A stretch of 64,000 bases of DNA. Origin: Chthonomonas calidirosea T49 (GTDB lineage Bacteria > Armatimonadota > Chthonomonadetes > Chthonomonadales > Chthonomonadaceae). Location: NCBI RefSeq assembly GCF_000427095.1, contig NC_021487.1, positions 2,961,241-3,025,240 on the forward strand. Reading direction: 5' to 3'. Both the position numbers and the translations under genes were made by a program. Positions 3,197 through 57,498 of the stretch are shown piece after piece. The notes below the pieces were generated by a model. That model saw nothing but the letters and a program-made list of their open reading frames with translations, was not told the origin of the DNA and made no database searches. Each line of letters begins with the position of its first letter. The stretch's first letter is position 1.

Positions 3197-4786
3197 TTGT
3201 CATCGGCACAGGTTGATCGTGAATTAGAGATACTGATCCGGGCCCGGTACCCCATCATTTACATCGTGTCTTGGGAGGAGCAGAGGGTCGAAGACGCCCT
3301 GCGACGCATTGCCCAAGAGCGCGGAAAAAAGCTGTTTGTGTGGACGGTGACTCAGGGGATGGTGACAAACCCCAACCACCGAGATAACGCCACCCGTGAC
3401 CCTCTGGCCGCCCTCGATGCCGTCAACGATTCGCGCGATCAGGCCATCTTCCTTCTGAAAGACTTCCATGCCTTCATCAACGACGTGACGGTGACACGAA
3501 GACTGCGCGACCTCGCTCTTGTCCTCAAAACATCGCATAAATCGCTGATCATCCTTGCCCCGTTTCTAAAACTGCCTCCTGAACTTGAGAAAGATATCGC
3601 CGTTGTGGACTATGCCTTGCCGGACTACGAAGACCTCGACCTCATCCTGGAGCGCGTGATCCAGGCGGTGAAGGATAACCCCAAAGTCAACTGTAACCTC
3701 AGCGAGCTGGAGCGTGACCAGGTTTTAAAGGCCGCGCAGGGGCTAACGGCCATGGAGGCGGAGAACGTGTTCGCCCGATCGCTCATCGAGCGCAACCGCT
3801 TCGACGTGGATGTGATCCTCGGTGAGAAGGAGCAGATCATCCGAAAATCCGGCATTCTTGAGTACTACCCCTTCAATGAGGGCATTCAGGACGTCGGTGG
3901 CCTCGACCTACTAAAAGATTGGATGCAAAAACGCACCGTAGCCTTCTCCGAGAAGGCGAAGGCATTTGGGCTGCCCGACCCGCGGGGCGTGCTGCTGCTT
4001 GGGGTGCAGGGGTGCGGTAAAAGCCTCTCTGCAAAAGTCATCGGCTCGCTGTGGCGTTTGCCCATTCTGCGCCTCGATGTGGGCCGCATCTTTGCCGGCC
4101 TTGTGGGAGCCTCCGAAGAGAACATGCGGAAAGCGATCCGAGTGGCCGAATCGGTGGCCCCCTGCGTCCTTTGGCTCGATGAACTCGAAAAGGGGTTCTC
4201 CGGAACACAAAGCTCCAGCTACTCCGATGGAGGCACCACAAGCCGTGTCTTTGGCACCTTCCTCACCTGGATGCAAGATAAAAAGGCGCCCGCTTTCGTT
4301 GTGGCCACCTCAAACGATGTCACCGCCCTTCCACCGGAACTTTTACGGAAAGGCCGCTTCGACGAGATCTTCTTTATAGACCTGCCTGCCCACAAGGAGC
4401 GCAAAGAGATCTTCCGTATCCACTTGCAGAAAAGGCACCGCAACCCCGAAAACTTTGACCTCGACCTGCTTGCCTCCGTGACCCCCGGCTTCTCCGGAGC
4501 GGAGATCGAGGCCTTGGTGGTGGAGGCCCTCTACGATGCTTTTGATAAAAACGGCGATCTTACCACCGACGCCATCGTCCAAGCCGCCACCCACACCGTG
4601 CCTCTATCCATGACGATGCGTGAGCGCATCGAGGAGCTGAGGGACTGGGCTCGCACCCGAGCGCGCGCGGCCTCGAGCGCTCATACCGAAACGATGGAGG
4701 AGATCACCGAGCAGCTGATGTTGGCGAAGTCGGGTAAGTTTGACCTGCTTGTGGAAGAAAAACAGCAGGCGACGGGCACAAACTAG
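3197..4786 (+). CDS. Ycf46-like AAA+ ATPase
   Basis: A 529-residue AAA+ protein. The first 240 residues match the characteristic N-domain of the cyanobacterial/plastid Ycf46 family (ELEILIRARYPIIYIVSWEE at residue 8), which resembles an inactive ATPase fold. The second half is an active AAA+ module: Walker A GVQGCGKS near 275, Walker B CVLWLDELEK near 325, sensor-1 VVATSNDV near 370 and an arginine-finger region LPPELLRKGRFDE. Ycf46 proteins are ring ATPases of poorly known function, linked to carbon-limitation responses in cyanobacteria. The TTG start is supported by GAGGAG eight bases upstream. It is first gene of a three-gene operon with NHL and propeller-TPR proteins. Confidence 0.88.
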   Translation: MSSAQVDRELEILIRARYPIIYIVSWEEQRVEDALRRIAQERGKKLFVWTVTQGMVTNPNHRDNATRDPLAALDAVNDSRDQAIFLLKDFHAFINDVTVTRRLRDLALVLKTSHKSLIILAPFLKLPPELEKDIAVVDYALPDYEDLDLILERVIQAVKDNPKVNCNLSELERDQVLKAAQGLTAMEAENVFARSLIERNRFDVDVILGEKEQIIRKSGILEYYPFNEGIQDVGGLDLLKDWMQKRTVAFSEKAKAFGLPDPRGVLLLGVQGCGKSLSAKVIGSLWRLPILRLDVGRIFAGLVGASEENMRKAIRVAESVAPCVLWLDELEKGFSGTQSSSYSDGGTTSRVFGTFLTWMQDKKAPAFVVATSNDVTALPPELLRKGRFDEIFFIDLPAHKERKEIFRIHLQKRHRNPENFDLDLLASVTPGFSGAEIEALVVEALYDAFDKNGDLTTDAIVQAATHTVPLSMTMRERIEELRDWARTRARAASSAHTETMEEITEQLMLAKSGKFDLLVEEKQQATGTN

Positions 4787-4796
4787 AGATAAAACG

Positions 4797-5729
4797 GTGG
4801 AATTCGATCGCTTCCGCTTTTTGGAGTTTGAAGATCAACCGACCTCAACGCCCATCCCCGATGAGGGTGCCAGTTTGGAGGAGACCGCTGCGAACCCCTC
4901 CGGCGCTTCCCCCAGAGAAACGGTGGAGTTGCAGGTTGTGGAAGTTATCGGCGCACCGGGCATGGAGGTGGGGGAGTTTCGCTGCCCAAAAGGCTTAGCC
5001 ATAGATGCCGATGGCGCCCTTTATGTGGCCGATAGCCTCAATAAGCGGGTACAGCGTATCGCCCTTAATGGTGATGTGGTGCGCTTCGAGCCTTTCTTAG
5101 AGCCGCAGGCAGTGGCTGTGCATCCACAGGGACAGGGGCTCTTTGTGGCCGACCTCGGCGACCATTGCGTTTATGGCTTGGATAGAACGGGGCGTCGTTT
5201 CCGTAGACTCTCCGGCTTTGTTAATCCTCTCGATATCGTGTTCGACGTGGAAGGGTTTTTGTGGGTCGCCGATACCGGCAACGGCCGAATAGTGCGACTG
5301 CATCCCTACACCGGCGACTGCATAGTGAGCATAGGACGCGAGAGAGGGCTTGTGCATCCCGTTGCCCTCGCTTTCGATAGCACTGGAGCCCTCTATGTTG
5401 CCGACGACTACCTTGGTACCATCGTGCGCTTTACGGCCAACACCCCGCCCGTCTCCGTTCTCACGGGAGTCCACCGCATCCGAGAAAAAGGCCAGTTTGC
5501 CCTCGACCTGCAAGGCCGAATCTATCTTGCCGATCCGGCGAACGATAGAGTCGTTGTGTTCAGTTCCCAAGGGGAAGCCCTGGCCACGCTGCGGCTACTT
5601 CCGGGGCGGCTAGGCACTCTCCATGCGCCTACCGGACTGGTGTTAGAGCCAAATTATCAAGGGTTTTACGTTAGCGATACCCAAAACCACCGTCTCCTAC
5701 GAGTTGTACTACAGCCATCGCGCCCATGA
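4797..5729 (+). CDS. NHL-repeat beta-propeller protein
   Basis: About 310 residues. After an acidic Pro/Ser-rich N-terminal tail of about 40 residues come at least six NHL-type blades, each with the pattern 'P.G(L/I)A.D..G.LYVAD..N.RV' (for example KGLAIDADGALYVADSLNKR and GLVHPVALAFDSTGALYVAD). NHL propellers bind protein, RNA or carbohydrate. No signal peptide is seen, so it is probably cytoplasmic. The GTG at 4797 lies ten bases after the AAA+ stop; a longer frame from 4740 would overlap that gene by 47 bases. The downstream gene starts within its stop codon (ATGA), so the three are surely co-translated. Partner or adaptor role for the ATPase is inference. Confidence 0.8.
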   Translation: MEFDRFRFLEFEDQPTSTPIPDEGASLEETAANPSGASPRETVELQVVEVIGAPGMEVGEFRCPKGLAIDADGALYVADSLNKRVQRIALNGDVVRFEPFLEPQAVAVHPQGQGLFVADLGDHCVYGLDRTGRRFRRLSGFVNPLDIVFDVEGFLWVADTGNGRIVRLHPYTGDCIVSIGRERGLVHPVALAFDSTGALYVADDYLGTIVRFTANTPPVSVLTGVHRIREKGQFALDLQGRIYLADPANDRVVVFSSQGEALATLRLLPGRLGTLHAPTGLVLEPNYQGFYVSDTQNHRLLRVVLQPSRP

Positions 5730-7432
5730 GAACCGTGCGTACCCTCCAACTTGAATGGCAGCAGCGCCTCCGCGGAGCCTATCCGTTACGGGGCTACCCG
5801 CTGGACGATCAAGGTTCCCTCACGCTTGCGCGGCCACATTCCATTGAACCGCGCACTTATGAGGTCATTCGCATAACCGATCCGCAGAACCAGACAGCGG
5901 TGGCACGTTTTTCTGCCGAAATCCTCCAGAAGCTGCTACTTAGCGCCGTCACGGAATCGTTCTTAGGTATGCGACCGGACGAGGTCTACCTGTTTGCCGA
6001 GGGCACAAAACGCCGACTCACCATGGAAAAGCGCGTTATCTACCTCGATGCAAGCATGGATGTAGGGGGCTCGCGCGTGGCTGCCGTCTACTCCGACATC
6101 TCCGGCCAAAACTTTGCCCTTGTGTATGGAACCTTTGTCGGCACAGGGCTTTGGAATATGGAGCTAGAAGCGGCGGCCAACAGTGTCGTCCTACTGCAAG
6201 AGGGGCGGCGCATGGCAACCGCCTATGAGAATGGGCTGATCCTGCTATTCGATGCGAACATGCGGGAGTGGTGGCGATTCGATACGGAAGAGCCGGTTAC
6301 GCTGCTCGCGTGCGCCACAGAGGGTGAGGAGCTGGCCTATGGGACGCAGACGGGATGGATCGGCATGCTTGATGCAGAGGGTGCGCGCCGTTGGCAGACG
6401 AAAGTAGCAGGGCCTGTACACGCTCTCGCCATGGCCAAAGAGGGGCAGCTTACGGTAGCCCTTTGCGGTTCCGAAGAGAACCCACGCGCGCCCACAACGC
6501 TGATCTGTCTCGACCAGGCCGGTCAGCCCGTTTGGGAGTATGAGGGCGATGTTCCTTTTACCGGTCTTGCCTGTTCGCCCGGTGGCGAGTACATCGCTAC
6601 CTCGGCTCAGGGGAGTCGCTTCAGCTTGTATCGAGTGGTCAGCACAACGGTGGAGGCTCTCTCGGTAAGCCGGAAGGATTGGAGAGCCTATTTACCGCTT
6701 GTGCCGGAAAAGGGCGCCATGAAGACGGCGCTTCAGAGCCTCTATGCCTATCTAGAAGAGTGCCCAGATGATGTGGAGTGCTGGCAGCAGTTTGAAGAGC
6801 TGAAGGCCCAGTGGATGGCCGACGTTCAGTGGGAGCTGGCGCATCTTCAGGCCGACGGAGAGTGGGAGGCGGCCCTCACGCTCCTGCAAGAGGCGCTCGC
6901 CTTAGCGCCCTATGACGTGGCGCTGTTTCAACAATATGTCGAGCTAAGACAACGCTTCGCCGAAGCGCTGCTACAGCAAGCGAAGAGCTTGCTTCAGGAG
7001 GGCCAAGCGGACACCGTGGAGCCGCTGTTGCGCAAGGCGATCCATCTCATGCCCGATCTCTTCGAGGCGCGTCAACGGCTGCAAGAGTTTCGTGCCGGCA
7101 GAGCGCAAGAGGCCGATAAAGAGGCGAAGGAGCGACTCGAACGTGGCGAACTGCAGGAGGCGCTGGCTTGCTACGAGCGCGCTCAGGCGTTCGCTCCCAC
7201 CGCTGAGCGAGCACAGACCATGGCGGCTCTTCAGGTTCAGATAGACTTTGAGCTTGGCAAGCAGGCCTACGATCGCTCGCGCTATGCCGAGGCCATCTTT
7301 CAATTTCGGAAAGTCCTGCAGCGCGAGCCAAACCATGCCGAAGCTAAGCGTTATTTGGAGTTCGCCCAACGCTTCGAGCAAGATACGCTTTCCGATGTGG
7401 TAAGCGATCGGTTTCGGAACCTTGAAGAGTAA
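5726..7432 (+). CDS. Propeller-TPR protein
   Basis: A 568-residue two-part protein. Residues about 90-320 form repeated beta segments like WD/PQQ propeller blades (for example LLACATEGEELAYGTQTGWI and GLACSPGGEYIATSAQG). Residues about 335-560 are tetratricopeptide repeats with the canonical Ala/Gly/Tyr pattern (AEAIFQFRKVLQREPNHAEA). The ATG overlaps the NHL stop by four bases, so translation is coupled. Last gene of the operon. No membrane segment or enzymatic motif is visible. Its architecture is that of a scaffold; a complex with the upstream AAA+ and NHL proteins is an inference from gene order. Confidence 0.75.
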   Translation: MRTVRTLQLEWQQRLRGAYPLRGYPLDDQGSLTLARPHSIEPRTYEVIRITDPQNQTAVARFSAEILQKLLLSAVTESFLGMRPDEVYLFAEGTKRRLTMEKRVIYLDASMDVGGSRVAAVYSDISGQNFALVYGTFVGTGLWNMELEAAANSVVLLQEGRRMATAYENGLILLFDANMREWWRFDTEEPVTLLACATEGEELAYGTQTGWIGMLDAEGARRWQTKVAGPVHALAMAKEGQLTVALCGSEENPRAPTTLICLDQAGQPVWEYEGDVPFTGLACSPGGEYIATSAQGSRFSLYRVVSTTVEALSVSRKDWRAYLPLVPEKGAMKTALQSLYAYLEECPDDVECWQQFEELKAQWMADVQWELAHLQADGEWEAALTLLQEALALAPYDVALFQQYVELRQRFAEALLQQAKSLLQEGQADTVEPLLRKAIHLMPDLFEARQRLQEFRAGRAQEADKEAKERLERGELQEALACYERAQAFAPTAERAQTMAALQVQIDFELGKQAYDRSRYAEAIFQFRKVLQREPNHAEAKRYLEFAQRFEQDTLSDVVSDRFRNLEE

Positions 7433-7736
7433 AAATACCTCCACTAACTTCCTTAAAAGTTCCTCGCAATAGGCCACAACCACTATCCCCGCGCGCTCAC
7501 GGCCCGGAAGAGGATTGGCGTCTATAGGAAACGCCCGATCCTGGCAATAATCTGTATGCCTTGCCCGTCCAAGGCCATCTACGTTGATAACTCTATAATT
7601 TTTGATTCTGAGGGAAAGGCGGAATAAGAGCGAATCGCGCATTGATGGGCTAACGACGAAACGCTCTCTTGTGGTAAGGATGACGCAGCAAAAGAACGAA
7701 CAAACGAACAAAACGTACCTATGGAGAGATAACCCC
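7433..7736. other. 304-bp intergenic region before the sigma-GGDEF gene
   Basis: No coding signal of its own. It contains a consensus TATAAT at 7594-7599 without a recognisable -35 at 17 bases, so the promoter, if there, may be used by an alternative sigma factor or need an activator. Two upstream in-frame starts (7602 and 7680) would extend the sigma gene into this stretch, but neither has a well-spaced Shine-Dalgarno site. Confidence 0.5.
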
Positions 7737-9050
7737 ATGCGACGCTACTCGGAGGAGGAGATACTTGAGCTGCTTGCAGCCTATCGGCAGCAACAAGACC
7801 TTCGTCTGCGCGATCGCATTGTATTAAACTACACCAACTTAGTGGAGAGCATTGCCCGACGCTTTTCCGGGGCTTCGGAGCCAATGGAAGACCTGGCACA
7901 GGAGGGCTATATTGGTCTCATCACGGCTATCGAGCTCTACGATCCCAAGAAGAATGTGAAATTCTCTACCTACGCGACCCACTTCATCATCGGCCAGATC
8001 AAACACTATCTGCGTGACCGTGGCAAGATCATCAAGGAGCCTGCCTGGCTTCAGGAACTAAACCTGCGCCTGAACCGCATCAGTGATGCGCTAACGCAAC
8101 AGCTCGGCCGAACCCCTACCTATGGTGAGATAGCCGAAAAGATGGGGATGCGTGAGGAGGAGGTAGCCGAACTCATGACCACGCGTGAGGTGTTTCGGGT
8201 AACCTCGATAGATGGCTTCCGCGAAAATGAGGATGGCTCTGCTCATAGCTATGGCGAGCGACACGATATTGCCGATCAAGCGGTGGCTTTTCAGCTTCCC
8301 ATCGAAGACCGCATTATGCTGGAAACCGCTATGAAAAAGCTGAAAGCTTTAGAGCAACAGGTGCTTGTAGAGTTCTACTTTAAGGACTTAAACCAGACGG
8401 AGATCGCCCAAAAGCTGGGCATCTCCTGCAACTACGTTTCTCATCTTATTCGCAACTCCACCCGCAAGCTGCGCAAAATCCTGACCACCGAGGATCTGCG
8501 CACGACCCAGGTTCAGCTCGCCCAGCTGCGCCAGGAGTTTGACATGGCGCTTTGCGAAGACCCCTCCGTCATCGTAGATCCACTTACCAAGCTCTATAAT
8601 CGCCACTATTTTGATATGCGGCTTCAGGAAGAGCTAAATCGCGCCCGCCGCATTAACTCGGAAGTGGCCGTGATCCTGTTGCGAATGGAAGGGCTGCAGG
8701 CCTTCACTCACTACCATGGTACGCTTTGGGGAGATGAGGCGGTGCAGCTAAGCGCTCAGCTCCTACGTCAAACCGTGCGTCGCTCCGACATCGTAACCCG
8801 CTATGCGACCGACACTTTCGCCGTGATCCTTCCCTACACAGGGAGCACTGCCAGCGCGGTGTTGCAACGTATCAGGGCTACGTTTGAGGACTTGCTGAAG
8901 GAAAAGGGATGGAATAGGGGCCACTCACCGCTCTGTTTTGCCTATAGCGTCGCTTGGTTTCCAATGGAAGCGAACCATCCGGCCACGTTATTACGCCTCT
9001 TAGAGGAGCGTCTCCAGCCGCCCTCTTCCTCCTTACAAAAGGCGGCTTAG
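7737..9050 (+). CDS. Sigma-70 family factor fused to a degenerate GGDEF domain
   Basis: A 437-residue fusion. Residues 10-105 are sigma region 2 (DLAQEGYIGLITAIELYDP, then KFSTYATHFIIGQIKHYLRD), 105-165 region 3, and 205-260 region 4 with its helix-turn-helix (LNQTEIAQKLGISCNYVSHL). From about 283 to the end is a diguanylate-cyclase fold: it begins VDPLTKLYNRHYFD, a normal GGDEF N-terminus. The catalytic motif reads ATDTF instead of GGDEF, so the domain should not make c-di-GMP. RRSD sits exactly five residues before it, the position of the inhibitory RxxD site. A receptor role is therefore likely, by inference. The ATG at 7737 follows GGAGAG by eight bases. Transcribed alone. Confidence 0.88.
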   Translation: MRRYSEEEILELLAAYRQQQDLRLRDRIVLNYTNLVESIARRFSGASEPMEDLAQEGYIGLITAIELYDPKKNVKFSTYATHFIIGQIKHYLRDRGKIIKEPAWLQELNLRLNRISDALTQQLGRTPTYGEIAEKMGMREEEVAELMTTREVFRVTSIDGFRENEDGSAHSYGERHDIADQAVAFQLPIEDRIMLETAMKKLKALEQQVLVEFYFKDLNQTEIAQKLGISCNYVSHLIRNSTRKLRKILTTEDLRTTQVQLAQLRQEFDMALCEDPSVIVDPLTKLYNRHYFDMRLQEELNRARRINSEVAVILLRMEGLQAFTHYHGTLWGDEAVQLSAQLLRQTVRRSDIVTRYATDTFAVILPYTGSTASAVLQRIRATFEDLLKEKGWNRGHSPLCFAYSVAWFPMEANHPATLLRLLEERLQPPSSSLQKAA

Positions 9051-54107: not shown

Positions 54108-54674
54108 TTACGCTGCCTTTGCCAGTGAGGACGGGTTTATAGATTTCCATCGTGGCGCTTTCTCCGCAGCTCCGAGGGCAGCAAGCAACCGCTCCGCTTG
54201 TCCTGGAATCCGCACATAGACGCGCCCATCGCCATAAAAGAGAAGCGTCCTGCCCACATTTCCTCCTAGGTCTGCCGCCACAATGGGCAGTCCAAAGCGG
54301 GCTAGCTCCTGCTGCACGGCCTCCACATTGCGCGGCCCGATGTCAAGTTTGCTGATGGTGCCAAACCCTTTAAAGATCTGCCCACCGCCGGCCAGAGCCA
54401 CTCGCATTCGGGAGCGGAGGGCCCCTTCTTTCTGTAGCTTTTCAATGAGTTGAGGAACCGCGATGTCGGCGTAACGCGGGTCGTCGTCCTCCGGATTTGT
54501 GCGGTTGGGTAAAACCACATGGGCCATGCCGGCCAGAGACAAGACCGGATCGTAGATGCAGACGCCGACACAGCTGCCTAAGCCCAAAGCGATCAAGAGC
54601 GAGTTTTCTGAGCGGCATATTTTGACCTCAGCCATTCCAACCGTTATCTTTTCACTCAATGGGGCGCTCTCCAT
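54108..54674 (-). CDS. cheD: CheD chemoreceptor glutamine deamidase
   Basis: 188 residues. The catalytic Cys lies in LGLGSCVGVCIYDPVL, the His in LAGMAHVVLPNR, and the Thr-containing loop follows; the core ALAGGGQIFKGFG and GPRNVEAVQQELARFGLPIV are typical. CheD deamidates receptor glutamines and binds CheC. The assigned ATG overlaps cheC by 23 bases. A second ATG 13 codons on (54635) is an alternative, but homologues usually keep the 'ITVGMAEV' strand that precedes it. Confidence 0.92.
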   Translation of the reverse strand: MESAPLSEKITVGMAEVKICRSENSLLIALGLGSCVGVCIYDPVLSLAGMAHVVLPNRTNPEDDDPRYADIAVPQLIEKLQKEGALRSRMRVALAGGGQIFKGFGTISKLDIGPRNVEAVQQELARFGLPIVAADLGGNVGRTLLFYGDGRVYVRIPGQAERLLAALGAAEKAPRWKSINPSSLAKAA

Positions 54675-55290
54675 AGAGGGCGTTTAAAAAGATAGACAAA
54701 CTATTCGATTCCGGAATGTACAAAAAGAAACCTTCTAAGTCGGTCTCGCGCTGTTCCATGTTGGTAACAATGGTCAGTGCGTCTGTTTGTAGGGTGCCAG
54801 TAGCTGCCAGCATCGAGGCAAGGCTTGAGAGAATGCTGGCGGTGACGTCGCAGGCGAAAGCCGGTGGGGTGGTGAACAGGGTTAGGCCGGTAAGTTCGCT
54901 GATGGCCATAAGGAACGAGGAGACGATGATGTTCCCCAGCTCCATGAGGGCGGAGCACTCTAATTCTCCTAACACCTTTGTGGTGCCAAGCGGCTGTCCT
55001 AAAAGCCTGTCGGCCGTTTTGAGAGCCCCTTCTTGAGAAAGAAGAAAGGCAACGTGTCCCGGAGCATCGCCCTCCACCGCTAAGTAGATGCCGATGGCCT
55101 CGTCCTCCGGTCTGCACAGGATCTCAAGGAAATGAGAAAGCGGCACGATATCCACACACGGCACATGCATGCCGATGCGCCAATCGGTGAGCGTCGCCAG
55201 TGCCGTTACCGCGTGCCCTGTTCCGATATTGGCGATCTCGCGGATGGCATCGAGCTGTTCTGATGTTAGTTTTAGGCAAGTTGTGTTCAT
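54652..55290 (-). CDS. cheC: CheC chemotaxis phosphatase
   Basis: 212 residues with two active-site helices, AIREIANIGTGHAVTALATL near 17 and SALMELGNIIVSSFLMAISE near 120, the hallmark of CheC rather than CheX. It dephosphorylates CheY-P and is stimulated by CheD, the next gene, with which it overlaps. GGAG lies eight bases before the ATG at 55290. A frame running far upstream to 55875 is only coincidental extension. First gene of the cheC-D-R-Y-X operon. Confidence 0.9.
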   Translation of the reverse strand: MNTTCLKLTSEQLDAIREIANIGTGHAVTALATLTDWRIGMHVPCVDIVPLSHFLEILCRPEDEAIGIYLAVEGDAPGHVAFLLSQEGALKTADRLLGQPLGTTKVLGELECSALMELGNIIVSSFLMAISELTGLTLFTTPPAFACDVTASILSSLASMLAATGTLQTDALTIVTNMEQRETDLEGFFLYIPESNSLSIFLNALYGERPIE

Positions 55291-55551
55291 GGCGCTGACT
55301 CCGGCGAAATTTTCGGCCCAAGCTGTCCTCTCATTGAGGGTGTTTGGACGAGGAAACCGGATTTTTGGCCAAAATCCGGTAGCTTTGCGAGGAATAGTGA
55401 AGAGGATGTTAGAAAAAAGCTCTTTGCTATAGGGTCGGAAGGAAAGTCGGCGCAATGGAAAGAACAAAAAGAACAAAACCATTACGAACCTCTTGCAGCG
55501 AAAAACGTCTCTATAGGCAGGAGAAGACATTTTTTCAAAAGGAATGTAAGA

Positions 55552-57498
55552 ATGTTTCTTCAGTATCCTCGGCAAAAACCCCGTCGAACTGTGCGCGTGG
55601 GAGCGACAGTGGCTTTGATAGGGTGGCTGGCATATCCTGTATGGGCCCGACAGGCTCCTCCGGTTACCCTTTCTGAAACGCCGCGGGCATTTGTCCTCTC
55701 TAACGGTATCCTTACAGTGCAGATCGATAAGTACAGCGGCAACATCACCTCCTGGAAGTATAAAGGCCTGGAGCTGATGAGCCGTGAGCAGGGCTACTGG
55801 TCGCAGGTGGGAAGCACCCGCCATTTTGGAGCTAAACGGATGGCATTGGTGCGCGTCAGCCCTGCTGCCTCGCACGGCGCCGAAGTTGAAGTGGCCGTGC
55901 GCGCCCTATATGACGCGCACAACCCCTCCGATCAGTTGCCAGTGGATGTGGAGTGGCGCTACACCCTGTTTCGAGAAGCTTCCTGGCTTTACGCAAGCGC
56001 CCTGTGGCATCATCCGCCAAGCTACCCTTCTTTCTCGGTGGGTGAGGCGAGGATGTGTCTTAAGCTCAACCCCGCCGTTTTCGACTATTTGGTGGTGGAT
56101 GCCCAGCGCCAGCAAAAGATGGCTACTGGTTACGATTGGGATCATGGTATACAGTTGAACCTGAAAGAGGCACGGCGCCTAACGACCGGTGTGCGAGCTG
56201 GTGAGGTGGAACATAAGTACGACTATGCCGCCGTGCTCTACCAGACGCCGGCTTACGGCTGGACAAGCACACACGATGGAGTGGGCTTTTGGATGATCAA
56301 TCCGAGCTTTGAATACCTTAGTGGGGGGCCGACACGACCGGAGCTGACAGGGCACGTAGACACGGTGTTGTTGAATATGTGGCTTAGTAGCCACTACGGA
56401 GGAAGCTGGCTCGCCATAGACAAAGGGGAGGATTGGACGAAGTTTGTAGGGCCTTTTGTGCTGTATGTGAATAGTGGTTCGACCCCACAGGCGATGTGGC
56501 ACGATGCACTCCATCGGGCGGCCTTGGAGAAGGCGAAGTGGCCCTATCCATGGGTAGACGATCCGAACTATCCTTCCGCCTCTCACCGCGGCACCGCTGA
56601 CGGCCAGATCCTTGTGCACGATCCCTACCATCCCCATTTAGAAGTTCGAGATATGTGGGTCGGGCTCACCGCTCCGGACTATCCCGCGCATCAGCCGGTC
56701 GGTTTCCCACCCATGGTGGATTGGCAGCGCGATGCAGCCCACTATCAGTTCTGGGTTCAGGCAAACCGCGACGGCTCCTTTCGTATACCAAACATTCGGC
56801 CTGGCCACTATACCCTCCACGCGTTTGCAACCGGAGTGCTCGGAGAGTTTGAGAAAACGGACATCTCCATTAACGCGGGAGAGACGCTCCATCTGGGCCG
56901 GTTGATCTGGATTCCAAAGTATTATGGGAAGCCTTTGTGGGAGATAGGCGTGCCTGACCGAACGGCGAGAGAGTTTCGGCATGGAGATCACTACTGGCAG
57001 TGGGGCCTGTACTATCTCTACCCTAAGGAGTTTCCTCATGGAGTTCAGTTTGTTATAGGGAAAAGCGACTGGCACCGCGATTGGAACTACTGTCAACCGC
57101 CCATCATCTATGGTGACCCAGAGTGGGGCACGGTATGGCAGGTGGCCGACAGCATATGGTCTATCTACTTTACGCTGCCGAAAGCGCTTGCAGGAAAGGC
57201 CTACCTACGGTTGGCTTTTTGCGGTAGCCGCCAGGGAACGCATATTACCGTGCTCGTCAATGGAAGGGTTGTAGGAGACACTGGCCCGCTTCCTGATTCG
57301 GGAGTGATGCATCGAGATGGGATACAGGGCTACTGGTGCGAGCGCGACGTTGCATTCGACGCCTCTCTCCTGAAGGCTGGCCAGAACGTTATTCAACTGA
57401 AACTGGAAGCCCACGATTGGCCGCAAGGCGTGCTTTACGACTATCTGCGGTTGGAGGTCTCTCCAACCACTTCAATCCTCACCGGCGCAAGAGAGTAA
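55552..57498 (+). CDS. Secreted rhamnogalacturonan lyase (PL4-like)
   Basis: 648 residues. A signal peptide (VGATVALIGWLAYPVWA) is followed by a beta-sandwich catalytic domain (FVLSNGILTVQIDKYSGNI near 44, EWRYTLFREASWLYASAL near 135, then EHKYDYAAVLYQTPAYGW). A middle fn3-like domain has QFWVQANRDGSFRIPNIRPG, and the C-terminal CBM-like domain runs from GDPEWGTVWQVADSIWSIYF to the end. This three-domain order is that of PL4 rhamnogalacturonate lyases, which split pectin backbone by beta-elimination. AAGGAATGTAAGA precedes the ATG. Divergent from cheC. Confidence 0.88.
   Translation: MFLQYPRQKPRRTVRVGATVALIGWLAYPVWARQAPPVTLSETPRAFVLSNGILTVQIDKYSGNITSWKYKGLELMSREQGYWSQVGSTRHFGAKRMALVRVSPAASHGAEVEVAVRALYDAHNPSDQLPVDVEWRYTLFREASWLYASALWHHPPSYPSFSVGEARMCLKLNPAVFDYLVVDAQRQQKMATGYDWDHGIQLNLKEARRLTTGVRAGEVEHKYDYAAVLYQTPAYGWTSTHDGVGFWMINPSFEYLSGGPTRPELTGHVDTVLLNMWLSSHYGGSWLAIDKGEDWTKFVGPFVLYVNSGSTPQAMWHDALHRAALEKAKWPYPWVDDPNYPSASHRGTADGQILVHDPYHPHLEVRDMWVGLTAPDYPAHQPVGFPPMVDWQRDAAHYQFWVQANRDGSFRIPNIRPGHYTLHAFATGVLGEFEKTDISINAGETLHLGRLIWIPKYYGKPLWEIGVPDRTAREFRHGDHYWQWGLYYLYPKEFPHGVQFVIGKSDWHRDWNYCQPPIIYGDPEWGTVWQVADSIWSIYFTLPKALAGKAYLRLAFCGSRQGTHITVLVNGRVVGDTGPLPDSGVMHRDGIQGYWCERDVAFDASLLKAGQNVIQLKLEAHDWPQGVLYDYLRLEVSPTTSILTGARE

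Follow-up and report, generated by a model that had tools for sequence, protein, structure and literature searches.

A putative c-di-GMP receptor domain carried by an alternative sigma factor of Armatimonadota

Introduction

Can a sigma factor itself be the receptor of a second messenger? The question is raised by a gene of Chthonomonas calidirosea T49 in which a sigma-70 factor appears to be continuous with a GGDEF domain that has lost its catalytic signature and kept its allosteric site. Here we examine this gene within the window, by which we mean the whole stretch of 64,000 nucleotides that was analysed, taken from a genome that consists of a single contig of 3,437,861 bases, together with its relatives in other genomes. 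We found no description of a sigma-GGDEF fusion in the open-access literature, a coverage that leaves most subscription papers outside.

Results

A single frame encodes a SigB/SigF/SigG-like sigma factor and a GGDEF fold

The gene, its likely ribosome-binding site and its sigma regions are located as follows.

7737 to 9050, + strand: sigma-GGDEF fusion gene, 437 amino acids (translation, Pfam, homologous fusions)
7723 to 7728, + strand: likely ribosome-binding site GGAGAG, 8 nt before the ATG at 7737 (sequence)
7824 to 8027, + strand: sigma region 2, residues 30-97 (Pfam PF04542, 6e-19)
8058 to 8225, + strand: sigma region 3, residues 108-163 (Pfam PF04539, 2e-12)
8328 to 8477, + strand: sigma region 4, residues 198-247 (Pfam PF04545, 6e-12)

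Translation of the frame gave 437 residues with zero internal stops, and together with the Pfam matches this bears out the original prediction of one open frame that encodes sigma regions 2, 3 and 4 followed by a GGDEF fold. An alternative in-frame start, TTG, lies further upstream at 7602; we prefer the ATG at 7737 because GGAGAG sits 8 nt ahead of it.

The best family for residues 23-248 was SigB/SigF/SigG (TIGR02980), at 194.4 bits and thus under the NCBIfam cut-off of 234.35 bits, for which reason we call the protein SigB/SigF/SigG-like and do not file it as a member. Region 2 contains residues that are invariant in the fusion family, namely the core-binding residues D52, L53, Q55, E56, G57, G60 and L61. 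Judged by its sequence, the fusion protein is an alternative sigma-70 family factor of the SigB/SigF/SigG-like kind, with regions 2, 3 and 4 in one polypeptide.

The GGDEF domain has lost its active site and kept its I-site

The C-terminal half holds the following features.

8571 to 9011, + strand: degenerate GGDEF domain, residues 279-425 (Pfam PF00990, 7e-26, 91 bits, cut-off 23.8; Foldseek)
8805 to 8819, + strand: ATDTF at the GGDEF position, residues 357-361 (translation, family alignment)
8778 to 8789, + strand: RxxD motif RRSD, residues 348-351, with R348 and D351 equivalent to PleD R359 and D362 (R in 86/86 fusions, D in 85/86)
8640 to 8642, + strand: R302, equivalent to PleD R313, the I-site residue that comes from the partner subunit (86/86 fusions; mapping from 2wb4; role from PMC7288161)
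8868 to 8870, + strand: R378, equivalent to PleD R390 (85/85 readable fusions)

The translation agrees with what had been read from the letters, as ATDTF occupies the catalytic position and RRSD precedes it by exactly five residues (IVTRY). The loss of catalysis that this was taken to imply proved to have a broader basis than ATDTF, since the equivalents of PleD D327, F330 and N335 are lost too. We aligned 86 distinct fusion C-domains, which have a mean pairwise identity of 0.30, with 26 intact cyclases of Armatimonadota. An intact GG[DE]EF motif was present in 0/86 fusions, and the metal- and GTP-binding residues, comprising the D327, F330 and N335 equivalents and the motif that follows, were scrambled. 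The GG[DE]EF motif and the metal- and GTP-binding residues that mark an active diguanylate cyclase are therefore both missing. The pentamers at the A-site vary by lineage, with dozens of different ones among 62 rows, and the alignment revealed no conserved new A-site pattern in the fusions; the I-site alone is conserved.

In PleD the I-site consists of R313, R359, D362 and R390, of which R313 is contributed by the adjacent subunit and the other three by a single one (PMC7288161). With these residues located from the ranges aligned to PleD chain 2wb4, the complete quartet was found in 84/86 fusions, and one of the exceptions is a masked residue. The same quartet is complete in only 14/26 live cyclases of the phylum (Fisher p 1.5e-7, a value that shared descent makes too optimistic, and the cyclases sampled are skewed towards the highest scores). 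Taken singly, the I-site residues of the live cyclases are common (R348 in 25/26, R378 in 24/26 and R302 in 23/26), and the clearest difference is at D351, which is present in 20/26 cyclases compared with 85/86 fusions. Among the columns that are conserved in live cyclases, most catalytic ones fall to 0-22% identity in the fusions, whereas the I-site ones remain at 98-100%. On these alignments the constraint on the I-site is at least as strong in the fusions as in the enzymes, and the direction of the difference is plain. Some of this conservation may nevertheless be inherited or structural, as the I-site is common in live cyclases too. Three further positions outside the quartet, E299, R305 and D281, are also nearly invariant.

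Two of the findings that had been named in advance as speaking against a receptor role are homologues with an intact GGDEF and loss of RxxD in most relatives. Neither was encountered; the former occurs in 0/86 sequences, and RxxD is kept in 85/86 and lost in 1/86. The combination of a degenerate A-site and an intact RxxD that characterizes receptors of the PopA/SgmT type is thus present in 85/86 fusions, and the further I-site arginines accompany it (the R390 equivalent in 85/85 readable sequences and the R313 equivalent in 86/86). The proposal that sensor and sigma factor share one polypeptide is accordingly supported as a reading of these sequences, with GGDEF intact in none of the 86, RxxD lost in one and all four PleD I-site residues kept.

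A predicted helix joins the two halves

The AlphaFold2 model had a mean pLDDT of 84.5, with the sigma domains and the GGDEF fold modelled confidently; the placement of the domains relative to each other is unreliable (pTM 0.42). The model contains a connection between the two halves.

8427 to 8549, + strand: one continuous predicted helix, residues 231-271, in which the recognition helix of sigma region 4 passes over into the GGDEF stalk (AlphaFold2)

The pLDDT drops to about 62-75 at residues 251-280. Foldseek matched the first half of the model to SigB and WhiG complexes, and the GGDEF half to WspR and, at 2.6 A over 154 columns, to the T. maritima cyclase 4urs (entries 4urs, 3bre and 3i5c). 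The RRSD motif is identical in the T. maritima cyclase (4urg/4urs).

The fusion is an old family of Armatimonadota

The same two-part protein recurs in about 58/101 related genomes, spanning Chthonomonadia, Fimbriimonadia and many unnamed families, which places the fusion far beyond chance. In a tree of the sigma part, 45 fusions formed one clade with 100/99 support, and the FliA/WhiG sigmas formed a clade apart from them. Four unfused orthologues, all of family f23 (G053, G066, G076 and G085; L179-L181 and L188), were nested inside the fusion clade, so f23 seems to have lost its C-terminal GGDEF domain secondarily. The fusion is an ancient and essentially vertically inherited Armatimonadota family.

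A scan of 84,980 species genomes returned fusions in Armatimonadota only, among the 80 loci listed; the scan used patterns from the sigma part, and an unrelated sigma-GGDEF fusion could escape it. A search of plasmids turned up no true fusion. The sole plasmid record covering >80% of the query, NZ_CP071045.1 of Streptomyces sp. CA-256286 (L039:4779-6404), contains a sigma gene of the SigF type and, behind it in the same frame, a disrupted GGDEF; we rejected it as a fusion given that stop codons part the sigma factor from the GGDEF. This locus yields a false fusion match in tblastn.

Linkage to type IV pilus genes

In at least 35 of 85 loci the fusion gene immediately follows pilC (T2SSF) in the same orientation, and in four of them (L209, L210, L211 and L215) it closes a full pilM-N-O-(P)-Q-B-T-C operon. 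PilB in these operons carries an MshEN domain, the type of domain by which MshE senses c-di-GMP. The control of MshE by c-di-GMP is cited in PMC8325347.

The window's own genome has a different arrangement, in which pilB-pilT-pilC is located elsewhere without the sigma gene and the fusion gene is not near pilus genes. The target genes are less certain in this genome, as the fusion gene has left the pilus operon there. Its neighbours in the window are little informative (an AAA ATPase, an NHL protein, a TPR/PQQ protein and an acyltransferase-like protein), and no anti-sigma or anti-anti-sigma gene was recognised adjoining it. The AAA ATPase, NHL-repeat and TPR/PQQ genes are consecutive at 3197-7432, just upstream of the fusion gene; in a small number of further loci from Chthonomonadaceae, including L043, L051 and L052, the sigma gene is likewise preceded by this trio, which there stands where the pilus genes would be. 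At a distance from these, the end of a reading frame at 54652-55875 (- strand) reads like a CheC-type chemotaxis phosphatase.

A promoter element ahead of pilM

An earlier, wider motif scan found no enrichment (22 matches versus 20 in the shuffle). Upstream of pilM, the element GMCRATAAT occurs in 17/54 loci; shuffled sequences gave 0.29 and the reverse strand 0. It usually has CTACAGTT or CTAGTT 12-14 bases ahead, often as CTACAGTT-N12-TGACGATAAT, and the element and its variants are found within 400 bp in L220-L226, L250-L252, L254-L257, L267 and L278. It resembles the -10 element of FliA/WhiG, and true FliA/WhiG sigma factors are also encoded in these genomes; with both present, the element is not assignable to the fusion sigma. 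On these grounds, and in view of the few genome-wide matches to the motif, we set that assignment aside and regard the element as a lead.

The window's genome encodes two FliA/WhiG-type sigmas besides the fusion (G000:C1:1155824-1156495, L323, and 879491-880153, L332). The same genome has AGTT-N13-GCCAATAAT at L310:13000-13060 (G000:C1:1463026-1463051), directly upstream of a gene that starts like FlgB (flagellar rod); flagellar and pilus genes may therefore share a promoter class in Armatimonadota. At the fusion gene itself no consensus sigma-A promoter was found, and a single candidate was noted.

7522 to 7551, + strand: weak putative promoter CTATAG-N15-GGCAATAAT, similar by eye to the element that relatives have ahead of pilM (sequence)

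Co-occurrence with c-di-GMP signalling

Besides the fusion, the C. calidirosea genome has 9 other GGDEF hits, 2 EAL, 5 HD-GYP and 4 PilZ domains, which makes it very likely that c-di-GMP is made, degraded and sensed there. Across genomes that carry the fusion, the median number of other GGDEF hits was 9 and the minimum 2, and the fusion was absent from 8/8 genomes without any GGDEF. Nine families include genomes with and without the fusion; in eight of them other GGDEFs are more numerous in the carriers, and the ninth is a tie. The f23 genomes, in which the sigma factor is kept and the C-domain lost, have 1-2 GGDEF proteins. This co-occurrence is partly confounded, since several genomes that lost the fusion appear to have lost the pilus protein PilM as well. 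We rejected PilM as a marker of pilus loss because its Pfam model also matches FtsA-like proteins; the overlap between losing pili and losing c-di-GMP is thus visible and not separable.

Discussion

The best explanation for these results, and in our assessment a likely one, is that a SigB/SigF/SigG-type alternative sigma factor uses its own dead GGDEF domain, at the C terminus, as a c-di-GMP receptor by means of a complete allosteric I-site. That c-di-GMP switches the sigma factor directly is probable on comparative grounds, as the dead domain has kept only the c-di-GMP binding site and the gene often ends a pilus operon.

The competing explanations differ in how they account for the retained residues. 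The dead GGDEF might be a protein-protein or dimerisation module, with for example an active cyclase or a pilus-base protein near PilC as partner, in which the I-site is kept for the fold or the interface. GGDEF domains are known to serve as interaction modules; the same I-site positions (R348, R378 and R302) are often conserved in live cyclases, and the near invariance of E299, R305 and D281 extends beyond the I-site. Yet the four I-site residues survive together more often in the dead fusions than in the live enzymes, most visibly at D351, despite a domain identity of about 30%, and an interface alone leaves unexplained why exactly the ligand-binding residues of both subunits were retained. 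We regard this scenario as unlikely, albeit the strongest of the alternatives.

The remaining two have less in their favour. Sensing of another nucleotide, such as GTP, c-di-AMP, cGAMP or ppGpp, in a pocket that has been reshaped would fit an A-site that has been scrambled lineage by lineage; the absence of any conserved new pattern at that site, the conservation of the I-site alone and the absence of the fusion from all genomes without GGDEF proteins make it improbable. One may also postulate that the GGDEF part is a functionless, decaying remnant and that the sigma factor is controlled otherwise, for example through partner switching by an RsbW-like anti-sigma factor. All members have indeed lost the active site, and the nested f23 lineage has lost the entire domain. 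However, the fold and the I-site are retained phylum-wide at about 30% identity, and four dispersed residues would not have survived random decay; a remnant is hard to reconcile with this and appears very improbable.

Returning to the sigma factor as c-di-GMP receptor, a mechanism can be proposed. Dimers of c-di-GMP would bind R348, D351 and R378 of one copy and R302 of another, and two sigma factors would thereby be tied together as in product-inhibited cyclases. Given that the stalk helix continues the sigma-4 recognition helix, pairing of the C-domains could reposition sigma region 4, alter binding to the -35 element or to RNA polymerase, and so turn initiation on or off. The regulon would include type IV pilus genes. 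The inhibited cyclase dimer and RsiG-WhiG serve as analogies here and incline us slightly towards the view that c-di-GMP switches the sigma factor off rather than on. On balance we favour the fuller proposal, with somewhat less assurance than the receptor role itself, that this is the first family in which the sigma factor itself is the second-messenger receptor, and that c-di-GMP probably pairs two copies through their -35-helix stalks and so switches initiation of the type IV pilus programme phylum-wide.

So far c-di-GMP is known to act on a sigma factor only by way of a distinct anti-sigma protein, in RsiG-WhiG. If this proposal is correct, a receptor-bearing sigma factor would link second messenger to promoter choice by the shortest route possible, and it would offer a compact element for placing transcription under c-di-GMP control. 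Armatimonadota would then provide an independent second case, beside RsiG-WhiG in a different phylum, of a c-di-GMP-linked sigma factor associated with type IV pili, and this would point to convergent evolution.

Comparison with known systems

Among known sigma factors, the SigB/SigF/SigG family (TIGR02980) shares complete regions 2, 3 and 4 with the fusion and is its best match; the fusion differs in its sub-cut-off score and in its putative C-terminal receptor domain. The GGDEF half shares its fold, stalk helix and I-site residues with the product-inhibited cyclases PleD, WspR and that of T. maritima (4urs), the last of which also has RRSD; unlike these, it is without catalytic residues, and cyclase activity is not expected.

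A degenerate A-site with an intact I-site is a recognised receptor pattern, represented by PopA and SgmT, and I-site-dependent binding of c-di-GMP has been shown for SgmT (PMC3509222). PelD, which the original prediction gave as an example, is a less suitable precedent than PopA and SgmT (PMC3509222). As in these two, a dead GGDEF with RxxD kept forms the C-terminal receptor domain of a signalling protein, putatively so in the fusion, and SgmT comes from a species whose motility depends on type IV pili, to which the fusion is linked as well. Their outputs are a response regulator or a histidine kinase, whereas that of the fusion is a sigma factor.

RsiG-WhiG of Actinobacteria is described as the only known sigma/anti-sigma complex targeted by c-di-GMP; the ligand is bound by the anti-sigma factor, a separate coiled-coil protein that carries E(X)3S(X)2R(X)3Q(X)3D motifs, and in Rubrobacter the system controls type IV pili (PMC8325347). 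Both systems involve a non-housekeeping sigma factor under c-di-GMP control, putatively in the case of the fusion, and both have a link to type IV pili. The putative receptor of the fusion, however, is a dead GGDEF inside a SigB/SigF/SigG-like sigma factor, while WhiG is of the FliA/WhiG type. The fusion may thus work like RsiG-WhiG, yet it is not RsiG-WhiG, as its receptor is in the same polypeptide and its sigma factor falls outside the FliA/WhiG clade; the family joins the idea of RsiG-WhiG and that of PopA and SgmT in one polypeptide.
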